In this document: piece by piece, positions 50,940 to 58,770 of the stretch
Layout of the letters: the number at the start of each line of letters is the position of its first letter
Numbering within the stretch: position 1 is the stretch's first letter
Assembly (NCBI GenBank): GCA_900469625.1
Contig: UBXV01000038.1
Location: 1 to 64,000 of the forward strand
Direction of reading: 5' to 3'
Source: Hyphomicrobiales bacterium
GTDB taxonomy: Bacteria; Pseudomonadota; Alphaproteobacteria; Rhizobiales; Rhizobiaceae
DNA length: 64,000 nucleotides
Position numbers and translations under genes: made by a program
The notes under the pieces: model-generated
Databases searched by the model: none
Told to the model about the DNA's origin: nothing
Seen by the model: only the letters and a program-made list of their open reading frames with translations

Positions 50940-50954
50940 GTTCAACATTTGTTC
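50940..50954 (+). promoter_or_regulatory. LexA box of dinB
   Basis: GTTC-AACATTT-GTTC, an exact match to the alphaproteobacterial LexA operator GTTC-N7-GTTC. It ends five bases before the ATG of dinB at 50960. Confidence 0.85.
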
Positions 50955-50959
50955 CAGAT

Positions 50960-52252
50960 ATGCTCGACAGTGGTTCTCAGACTCCAGGCTTCTGCCGTGA
51001 TTGCCTCAGGGACCAGACCGCGACCGCGCGACGCTGCCTTGCCTGTGGCAGTCCGCGTATCCTGCGCCATGCGGAACTCTTCGATCTGACGCTCGCCCAT
51101 ATCGATTGCGATGCGTTCTACGCTTCCGTCGAGAAACGCGACAATCCCGAGCTTGCCGACAAGCCGGTGATTATCGGCGGCGGCAAGCGTGGCGTGGTTT
51201 CTACCGCCTGCTATATCGCCCGCATCCACGGGGTGCGCTCGGCCATGCCGATGTTCAAGGCGCTCGAAGCCTGTCCGCAGGCCATCGTCATCAAACCCAA
51301 CATGGAAAAATACGTTCACGTCGGCCGCGAGGTTCGCACGCTGATGCAGGAGCTGACGCCCCTGGTGCAACCGCTCTCCATCGACGAGGCGTTCCTGGAG
51401 CTGAGCGGTACGCAGAGGCTGCACCACGATCCCCCGGCCCGAACGCTCGCACGCTTTGCCCGCCGGGTCGAACAGGAAATCGGCATTACCGTCTCCGTCG
51501 GCCTTTCCTATTGCAAGTTCCTCGCCAAGGTCGCGTCGGATCTGCAGAAGCCACGCGGCTTTTCAGTGATCGGCCAGACCGAGGCACTCGAATTCCTGAG
51601 AGAGAAGCCGGTGACCTTGATCTGGGGTGTCGGCAAGGCGTTCGCTGCCACGCTGGAGCGTGATGGCATCCGCACGATCGGCCAGTTGCAAACGATGGAG
51701 GAGGCCGACCTCATCCGCCGCTACGGCACCATGGGTCAAAGGCTCTTTCGCCTGTCTCGCGGCCTGGACGAAAGGGCGGTAGAGATAGATGGCGAAGCGA
51801 AAAGCGTGTCGTCGGAGACGACATTCAACGACGACCTAGCCCGTCACGACGATCTCGTGACGCACCTGCGCCGCCTGAGCGAGAAGGTCGCGCACCGGCT
51901 GCGCAAATCCGAGCTCGCCGGGCAGACGGTGGTTTTGAAGCTGAAGACGTCCGACTTCAAGACCAGGACCCGCAACCGGCGCCTCGACAGCCCGACGCGG
52001 CTCGCAGACCGGATCTTCCGCACCGGCCTGCAATTGCTGGAAAAAGAGGTCGATGGCACGAAGTATCGACTGATCGGCATCGGCGTCAGCGATCTTTCGA
52101 GCCCTGATCTCGCCGACCCGCCCGATCTCGTCGATCCGGCGGCGACCCGGCGCGCTGCCGCAGAAGACGCCATCAACAGGCTGCGCGACAAGTTCGGCAA
52201 GGCAAGCGTCGAGACCGGCTACACGTTCGGCAGCCGCAAGCGCGATCAATAG
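50960..52252 (+). CDS. dinB: DNA polymerase IV (Y family) with N-terminal zinc-finger-like extension
   Basis: A 430-residue error-prone translesion polymerase. [20 protein letters not shown] gives the first catalytic Asp; [17 protein letters not shown] gives the SIDE motif. The little-finger domain lies in the C-terminal third ([20 protein letters not shown]). The N-terminus adds [19 protein letters not shown], a C-x2-C...C-x2-C pattern seen in rhizobial DinB. The only suitable start codon upstream of these cysteines is ATG 50960, five bases after a LexA box, so the mRNA leader must be very short or absent. SOS control is strongly suggested. Confidence 0.95.
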
Positions 52253-53708: not shown

Positions 53709-57206
<3,498 letters not shown>

Positions 57207-57210
57207 TGCC

Positions 57211-57234
57211 ACACCCTGATTCCGTTCAGGGTGT
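57211..57234 (-). promoter_or_regulatory. Hairpin over the dnaE ribosome-binding site
   Basis: ACACCCTGA and TCAGGGTGT form a perfect 9-bp stem with a six-base loop, ending four bases before the dnaE ATG (57206). The probable Shine-Dalgarno AGGG lies inside the stem, so translation of dnaE could be limited by this structure. Confidence 0.65.
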
Positions 57235-57368
57235 CAGGATATCCCGTTTCTCACCCGCCATGTCCAGTTTTGCGTCGTGAGCCAGCGTTCTTTTCAACGC
57301 TGCGATACCGGGATGGGATCACGCGACCCCGCAACGGGATCGCATCAATTCGCATATATGCCCGGGGA

Positions 57369-57455
57369 TCAAAGACCGAGCGCGATAAAGGCTACGCTTG
57401 CGACGAACAGGCCCATCGATGTGAAGGCGGCGAGGTCACGAACAAAATCAGTCAT
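57369..57455 (-). CDS. LexA-controlled 28-residue membrane protein, SidA-like candidate
   Basis: An 87-base gene: ATG at 57455, TGA at 57371-57369. AAGGAG lies about seven bases upstream. The product begins MTDFVRDLAAFTSMG and continues with a hydrophobic stretch LFVASVAFIALGL, so a short polar N-terminus and one membrane helix. A LexA box is 34 bp upstream. In Caulobacter, SidA is a 29-residue, LexA-regulated inner-membrane protein that blocks division through FtsW. Size, topology and control match; sequence homology has not been tested and I do not claim it. It is transcribed toward dnaE, 162 bp downstream. Confidence 0.65.
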   Translation of the reverse strand: MTDFVRDLAAFTSMGLFVASVAFIALGL

Positions 57456-57488
57456 AACATGGCTCCTTTTCCGTTATGTTTTTACTTT

Positions 57489-57503
57489 GTTCTATTTTTG
57501 TTC
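57489..57503 (-). promoter_or_regulatory. LexA box upstream of the small membrane gene
   Basis: On the plus strand GTTC-TATTTTT-GTTC, an exact alphaproteobacterial LexA operator. A TTGACG -35-like hexamer lies just upstream on the minus strand at 57512-57507, so the box would sit in the leftward promoter of the 28-residue gene (34 bp to its ATG). The rightward gene at 57652 is 148 bp away and a less likely target. Confidence 0.85.
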
Positions 57504-57651
57504 CGACGTCAATCGCTGTTGAACACAGCGCCCGCTTTCCACTGCGCATGGTTAACCGCGGCCAGACGGACCGATCGAGGCAATTAACCGAACGCTTGAG
57601 CGCATCGTTCAACCCGCTTAGAACCGGAGCATCACACGGAGCACAAGCGAC

Positions 57652-58234: not shown

Positions 58235-58249
58235 GTTCTCTTTTTGTTC
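58235..58249 (+). promoter_or_regulatory. LexA box upstream of the DUF5680-like gene
   Basis: GTTC-TCTTTTT-GTTC, exact LexA operator and only one base different from the box at 57489. It lies 53 bases before the chosen ATG at 58303 and ten bases after the stop of the preceding gene. Confidence 0.85.
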
Positions 58250-58302: not shown

Positions 58303-58770
58303 ATGGCCAGCATCGAACAGCTCAAAGACTTCATCGTGGAAGCGAAATCGAAGACCTATATCGGTGGCGGCACGGCCAGTCCGGCATCACGCGCCGGCGC
58401 ACGCGATATCGGCTACCAGCGCGACCGGTGGCAATATCTCGACAGCTATTTCGGTGGGACGGATTTCGCCGGGCAGGAAACCGTCTGGCTCGACGGCGAT
58501 ACCCGTTGGGTCATGAATTATTTCGGCCGCGTCGTCCGTCCGGATCTGATCGATGGCGAACGCGCCGGCATCGTCATCAAGGCTGCGCTCGAGACCATGT
58601 ATCGCGAGAAGCGGCATTTCCTCGGGGGCATGGAGTATCGACACGCCTTCGGCACCTACATCGACAGCAGCCGCGGTGACACGGGGCACTTTTCGGGCCG
58701 CGAGGTCATCTTCGTCGACGGCGACGAAGCCTACGAGCTCGACTATCGCGGCGGTCTTATCGTGCCATAG
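58303..58770 (+). CDS. DUF5680-like protein, predicted SOS-regulated
   Basis: A 155-residue soluble protein: MASIEQLKDFIVEAKSKTYI at the start, SYFGGTDFAGQETVWLDGD, then VMNYFGRVVRPDLIDGERAG and the tail EVIFVDGDEAYELDYRGGLI. The pattern matches what I know as DUF5680, a domain that stands alone or follows an XRE DNA-binding domain; its function is unknown. No catalytic motif is certain. ATG at 58264 is an alternative start in frame, but MASIEQL is the family start. It has its own LexA box and converges on lolD. Confidence 0.82.
   Translation: MASIEQLKDFIVEAKSKTYIGGGTASPASRAGARDIGYQRDRWQYLDSYFGGTDFAGQETVWLDGDTRWVMNYFGRVVRPDLIDGERAGIVIKAALETMYREKRHFLGGMEYRHAFGTYIDSSRGDTGHFSGREVIFVDGDEAYELDYRGGLIVP

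Follow-up and report, generated by a model that had tools for sequence, protein, structure and literature searches.

A 28-residue membrane peptide encoded behind a LexA box ahead of dnaE1 in Rhizobiaceae is probably a diverged orthologue of the Caulobacter division inhibitor SidA

Does the small open reading frame (ORF) that lies ahead of dnaE1 in the 64-kb window (the whole 64,000-nt stretch of DNA analysed here) encode an inhibitor with which rhizobia hold back cell division when their DNA is damaged? The question arises from Caulobacter, where SidA is described as a 29-residue inner-membrane protein that is induced by the SOS response and blocks division via FtsW, and that also touches FtsN and leaves Z-rings undisturbed (PMC4211646). 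The portions of the open-licence literature available to us contained neither a named SOS division inhibitor for rhizobia nor a report of SidA outside Caulobacter or of a dnaE-leader ORF tied to the SOS response. The first-pass annotation of this DNA had put the ORF forward as a candidate of the SidA type, and we consider it quite probable that the window gene is a diverged SidA orthologue that inhibits division in the SOS response of rhizobia, and that its place next to dnaE is an old one.

The 28-codon gene with its single helix, the AAGGAG motif and the exact GTTC-N7-GTTC box were found as the first-pass annotation had claimed, at the coordinates given in Table 1. The TTGACG hexamer had been described as overlapping the LexA box, and here the description failed, since the hexamer ends before the box begins. 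Read along the minus strand, the order is TTGACG, LexA box, AAGGAG, 28-codon ORF and dnaE1. The dnaE1 gene starts with a GTG at 57212, with an alternative ATG at 57206. The hydropathy of the peptide reaches a Kyte-Doolittle maximum of 2.17 over 16 residues, indicating one helix, and both this and its length agree with the approximately 29 residues and single helix of SidA. A consensus scan of positions 57150-57600 found no sigma-70 promoter pair, and no good -10 hexamer follows TTGACG. The position of the weak third half-site carries GAAC or AAAC in several relatives, an observation at the level of the sequence. In the relatives L019, L022, L233 and L235, LexA half-sites stand in tandem or overlap in an 11-nt register, for example GAACGTAATAAGAACATAGTGGGAAC in L019, a sign that two or more LexA dimers may bind one promoter. 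A further element is a two-codon ORF, ATG-TTA-TGA (57453-57460, minus strand), which overlaps the start of the 28-codon ORF (ATGA); ATGTTATG is present in 16/16 same-genus loci, and the two-codon ORF could couple or tune initiation of the 28-codon ORF.

Table 1. Features of the small ORF-dnaE1 locus, with positions in the 64-kb window.
Feature	Position	Strand	Remarks
28-aa single-helix membrane protein, SidA-like, MTDFVRDLAAFTSMGLFVASVAFIALGL	57369..57455	-	28 codons; conservation and profile tests
AAGGAG ribosome-binding site	57463..57468	-	7 nt ahead of ATG; kept in 16/16 same-genus loci
LexA (SOS) box GAACAAAAATAGAAC	57489..57503	-	exact GTTC-N7-GTTC on plus strand
AAAC, weak third half-site	57478..57481	-	11-nt register with two GAAC half-sites; sequence only
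TTGACG, -35-like hexamer	57507..57512	-	3 nt upstream of LexA box
Leader from small ORF to dnaE1, 156 nt	57213..57368	-	hairpins; no terminator-like site
dnaE1, replicative DNA polymerase III alpha subunit	53709..57212	-	Pfam PF07733, PF17657, PF02811, PF14579

Matches to GTTC-N7-GTTC occur five times in the 64-kb window, where 2.3 would be expected, and at least five turn up in 10 of 100 shuffled sequences, so that the number of boxes in the window, which is not significant, was rejected as evidence. Because five boxes in 64 kb are within chance, the case rests on comparison. The exact box is in place in 16/16 same-genus genomes searched, as is fitting for a relative of SidA with a LexA box in its promoter, and in the same 16 loci TTGAC is followed by the box within 6 nt. 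A loss of the box in near relatives, which the first-pass annotation had named as a sign against its proposal, was thus not seen. The recA and lexA genes of the source genome are preceded by the same form of box (GAACATGAATCGAAC and GTTCCATATGTGTTC, respectively). Elsewhere in the window, a second LexA-like box, GTTCTCTTTTTGTTC (58235-58249), lies ahead of a DUF5680 gene at 58303-58770 on the plus strand (PF18931, E 5.7e-22), and near this place an exact box in the same orientation was found in 14/16 same-genus loci; the DUF5680 protein may be the product of an SOS gene in the source genus. Another box, GTTCAACATTTGTTC (50940-50954), stands directly ahead of a gene for a Y-family (DinB-like) polymerase at 50960-52252 on the plus strand (PF00817, E 1.6e-46). 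The profile accessions used for HfaB, RecA, LexA and FtsW, and PF07733, agreed with the names given by the database.

A tblastn search of 61 genomes (the source genome and 60 relatives) with the window peptide matched 16/16 same-genus genomes at 82-100% identity, and matched other genera as well, at lower identity. In all 16 same-genus genomes dnaE is the next gene on the same strand. The variation among these 16 loci is skewed, with a pN/pS of 0.17 (pS 0.258, pN 0.043) and with 5, 0 and 13 variable sites at codon positions 1, 2 and 3, and the other two frames of the same strand are interrupted by stops in all of them. The 28-residue peptide is under purifying selection. Both comparisons that the first-pass annotation had suggested, the search for frame and box next to dnaE in relatives and that of synonymous with non-synonymous change, came out in its favor. 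They also bear on the reading that the ORF is a product of chance and that the box alone matters, dnaE1 itself being the SOS gene. The box would serve dnaE1 too if the transcript runs through, but a chance ORF is at odds with an ORF, a start and a ribosome-binding site that are present in 16/16 same-genus loci and change in a synonymous-biased manner.

Beyond the near relatives, the single peptide fades fast in sequence search, and in 289 genomes of the class, at E ≤ 0.1, it retrieved its own genome only. The gene was therefore searched for by synteny at dnaE, which was located via its N-terminus, after which the upstream sequence was read for small ORFs. Besides the tblastn loci, 34 genomes of the order or family were included, together with a class sample (a draw of 142 genomes gave 117 others that matched dnaE, and 66 of these were used) and non-random samples of two families, f30 (the best 30 of 75 loci) and f89 (the best 30 plus 20 chosen of 94 loci). 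Six places that had been fetched twice were removed before the tallies. An ORF was called a member when it scored at least 10 bits with one HMM, for which the best of 3531 opposite-strand ORFs scored 7.3. A related small one-helix ORF is located at dnaE in 146/225 alphaproteobacterial dnaE loci scored, a number that, like the box counts below, is non-independent, since many loci are close relatives, f30 and f89 were sampled non-randomly, and most of the peptides had gone into training the HMM. Six peptides (L032, L036, L060, L066, L111 and L143) were omitted from this full HMM; because it was trained on most of the peptides scored, the member counts lean on the leave-family-out tests described below. 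Members were found in 16/16 same-genus loci, at dnaE in 15/21 loci from other genera of the own family (6/21 without), in 12/23 from other families of the order, in 9/62 from the other families of the class that were sampled (53/62 without), and in 25/31 and 48/50 loci of f30 and f89, respectively. The named contig records had a member in 18/18 scored, one record (L225) being left unscored with 42 nt of upstream sequence, and the named plasmid-collection records in 3/4. Outside Rhizobiaceae, f30 and Caulobacteraceae, many lineages lack the gene at dnaE.

Of the 146 family members, 118 have an exact box just upstream, where mononucleotide shuffles predict 0.7, and 144 have a box with one mismatch or none, where shuffles predict 12.6. 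In a control window 400 nt further upstream the corresponding numbers were 0/144 and 8/144. It is conservation that raises the box above chance. TTGAC was found anywhere in the 125-nt upstream window in 96/146 members. The chance-ORF reading could draw on the loci without a scored member, as an exact box is present within 760 nt in 5/79 of these (L032, L060, L066, L109 and L143); in four of the five (L032, L060, L066 and L143) another small helix ORF follows the box. Across the class, the ORF and the box occur together, and a frame lost where the box is kept, the other sign against its proposal that the first-pass annotation had named, was encountered neither as the rule in the genus nor in the class. 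With the frame conserved in this way, we find it hardly credible that the ORF is a chance one.

The family f89 is Caulobacteraceae, as the stretch from genome G501 (L195) is letter-identical within the record of Caulobacter vibrioides DSM 9893 (L214). The ORF before dnaE in the latter strain encodes 29 residues and is the cell division inhibitor SidA according to NCBIfam NF033228 (E 2e-20, 72.4 bits, cut-off 35). The window gene thus occupies the place of sidA, directly upstream of dnaE and under the same kind of box; that this position is a feature of SidA was found in the present analysis and is not a published criterion. In the available parts of the published Caulobacter work, dnaE is CC1926 and recN CC1983 (PMC1839093), recN is ccna_02062 (PMC12700426) and sidA is CCNA_02004 (PMC10769358). 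From these gene numbers, with the numbering offset calculated here, sidA lies next to dnaE or very close to it.

The peptides of the two families are homologous. An hhalign comparison of 17 Rhizobiaceae with 17 Caulobacteraceae sequences gave 93.9% and an E of 1.5e-7 over 21 ungapped columns. When all columns but the first two were permuted, 0/200 permutations reached the score (best 14.9 versus 28.4), and the same was true when the hydrophobic columns alone were permuted (0/200, best 21.1 versus 28.4). The families share an ungapped register, [RK][DE]xxAxxSxxxF, which is a majority pattern and not an invariant one. With Caulobacter sidA at the same place and the two peptide families aligning as profiles beyond column-permuted controls, the proposal of a SidA-type candidate gained ground.

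Leave-family-out HMM tests used 335 TM ORFs and the peptides' own shuffles as decoys, and three ORF-picker outputs (L053, L071 and L205) were dropped as noise beforehand. With an HMM built from Rhizobiaceae only, 48/48 Caulobacteraceae peptides scored higher than 95% of the TM-ORF decoys (AUC 0.986). With an HMM from 44 non-Caulobacteraceae peptides, the 48 Caulobacteraceae peptides had a median of 25.0 bits and a lowest score of 6.4, and 45/48 scored above 9.8, the maximum among 960 shuffles of these peptides. In the other direction, 20/21 Rhizobiaceae peptides scored higher than 95% of the decoys with the Caulobacteraceae model (AUC 0.948). The f30 family has a weak link under the Rhizobiaceae model (AUC 0.75 versus TM ORFs and 0.67 versus own shuffles), does not rise above shuffles under the Caulobacteraceae model (0.65 and 0.53), and reached AUCs of 0.965 and 0.968 once intermediate families were added. 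No left-out family beat the best decoy ORF, except for 8/21 Rhizobiaceae and 7/23 other peptides with the f30 model. The high-scoring decoys are family members missed by the picker (L026, L095/L030, L177, L202, L205, L213 and L045), and the best remaining decoys scored 6.3 bits with the Rhizobiaceae model, 7.6 with the Caulobacteraceae model and 8.6 with the Rhizobiaceae-plus-other model. Since helix peptides are short and biased, sequence statistics would be thin without synteny.

NF033228, whose cut-off is 35 bits, gave no match for the window peptide or for the Sinorhizobium meliloti peptide described below. At E ≤ 10 it matched 8/39 peptides of a mixed set, which equals the number of Caulobacteraceae in that set, and 17/17 Caulobacteraceae peptides given. 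Out of six Caulobacteraceae scores, 72.4 and 59.6 pass the cut-off and 34.0, 26.5, 20.5 and 18.3 fail. The cut-off is narrow and misses the tested forms outside Caulobacteraceae and some within, and so will annotation pipelines that use this model. The window peptide resembles SidA of C. crescentus/vibrioides in size (28 versus 29 residues), in having one helix, in its LexA box, in its position upstream of dnaE and in the common register. It is unlike SidA in lacking the FVWM(M/V)C block, which rhizobia do not have, and in not being recognised by the SidA model, and its inhibitory activity is predicted. In Caulobacter, the FtsW substitution A31K is reported to relieve inhibition by SidA but not by DidA (PMC4211646). 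The FtsW of the source genome, with 179/397 aligned residues identical to Caulobacter FtsW, has T in place of A31 and retains F145 and A246. Published AlphaFold 3 models put SidA on TM7 of FtsW, at less than high confidence (PMC13396833). Given the absent block and the T at this position, the contact with FtsW may have drifted along with the partner.

In S. meliloti Ak57, an orthologue, MADFVRDLAAFASMSLFIVSISVIALGL, is located before dnaE and carries two overlapping boxes. It lies in a gap without listed genes on a 3.7-Mb record filed as a plasmid; as the PLSDB gene table is incomplete, the missing annotation says little. The dnaE1 5'-UTR of S. meliloti 2011 contains sORF25, which was reported to be translated and was read as a possible uORF, and for which the main text, in the part available, gives no function and does not mention LexA or SOS (PMC10117765). 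Both sORF25 and the Ak57 orthologue lie in the same place as the window gene, and by position sORF25 would correspond to the orthologue of the window gene. Lack of a translation signal had been listed by the first-pass annotation among the findings that would speak against the ORF, and the S. meliloti ORF, as reported, is translated. From the same publication it follows that one transcript can carry both the small ORF and dnaE1.

Such an arrangement would suit a leader peptide or uORF whose translation tunes dnaE1, the peptide itself being inert in the membrane. Apart from the published reading of sORF25, this is consistent with the leader, whose fold (stretch 57200-57370) is stronger than that of shuffles (z = -2.68), with a hairpin just ahead of the dnaE start and 0 terminators found between small ORF and dnaE1, and with the many Caulobacteraceae loci in which the ORF ends at about the dnaE start. 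However, it is the amino acids that are under selection, and the spacing between the stop codon and dnaE varies from about -20 to 549 nt around a median of 56 nt (152 loci, with duplicates among them and with an approximate dnaE start), which is too variable for attenuation at a fixed short distance. Moreover, Caulobacter has SidA in this place, a division inhibitor acting on FtsW in the published account (PMC4211646), and in one genome of the same family (G023) a related ORF lies away from dnaE. We therefore regard a mere tuning role as improbable.

The G023 genome has no member at dnaE (L105), and its related ORF, MRDLVQDTCSFVAMGLFLISAAFWIGAL, is located elsewhere (L026), on the minus strand with its start at 1572. 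Under the Rhizobiaceae model, trained without this ORF, its score is 32.8 bits; as it is not beside dnaE, it was excluded from the tallies. There is no LexA box within 140 nt of this ORF, and an exact box, GAACATTTCAAGAAC, is present on its strand ~390 nt upstream. An upstream ORF ends just before the ATG of the peptide, and a DUF5131 gene follows. This looks like a relocated gene, second in an apparent operon, that has retained SOS control, a reading that comes from one locus and from an exact box that in 3 kb can arise by chance.

The kind of system is known, and what is new is the membership, the breadth and the lasting dnaE neighbourhood. YneA, SosA, ChiZ and other SOS division inhibitors are larger. 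TisB is a small one-helix peptide under LexA control, and acts on the membrane as a toxin with an antisense RNA. The window gene might likewise encode a LexA-controlled membrane toxin of the sort of E. coli TisB and DinQ, lowering the membrane potential instead of inhibiting the divisome. Small size, one helix and LexA control, by which it is likened to these peptides by description, would fit DinQ, in the available account a membrane-acting toxin with an antisense RNA (PMC3567139), but the profile match and the dnaE synteny are those of SidA, and the conserved D7, S13 and F17 suggest a protein partner, which makes a toxin of this sort an unlikely explanation. YneA, SosA and ChiZ are also similar by description, as SOS-induced small membrane proteins with late-divisome targets such as FtsW (PMC13396833), and differ in belonging to other phyla.

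Returning to the window gene as a diverged SidA, its predicted mode of action can be outlined as follows. With LexA on the box, which closely follows the -35 hexamer, the promoter of the small ORF would be kept off. Upon DNA damage, RecA would trigger LexA cleavage and the promoter would open, so that the 28-residue inner-membrane peptide could be made, with its one helix and a short N-terminal stretch that includes the conserved [RK][DE] pair. The peptide may then contact the FtsW/FtsI/FtsN complex and restrain septal wall synthesis until repair is done, and by orthology the rhizobial peptide would most likely block division as SidA does. As the mRNA would continue into dnaE1, the same switch may raise the replicative polymerase too. 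From the comparison with Caulobacter we infer that damage induction, division arrest, FtsW contact and dnaE1 co-induction would apply to rhizobia.

For rhizobia, the outcome is one named gene; the target is 87 bp long, and the model species S. meliloti carries an orthologue. SidA, until now a Caulobacter gene, becomes part of a family that sits at dnaE in Rhizobiaceae, in other families of the order, in Caulobacteraceae and elsewhere, and the SidA checkpoint looks older and wider than known. The lasting neighbourhood poses the question whether the SOS response raises the replicative polymerase together with a division brake. We lean, with some reserve, toward the view that SidA represents, in Caulobacter, a checkpoint peptide that is old in the Alphaproteobacteria and shares one LexA switch with dnaE, so that damage would halt septation and boost DnaE1 at once, and that this peptide would be the SOS division brake of rhizobia.
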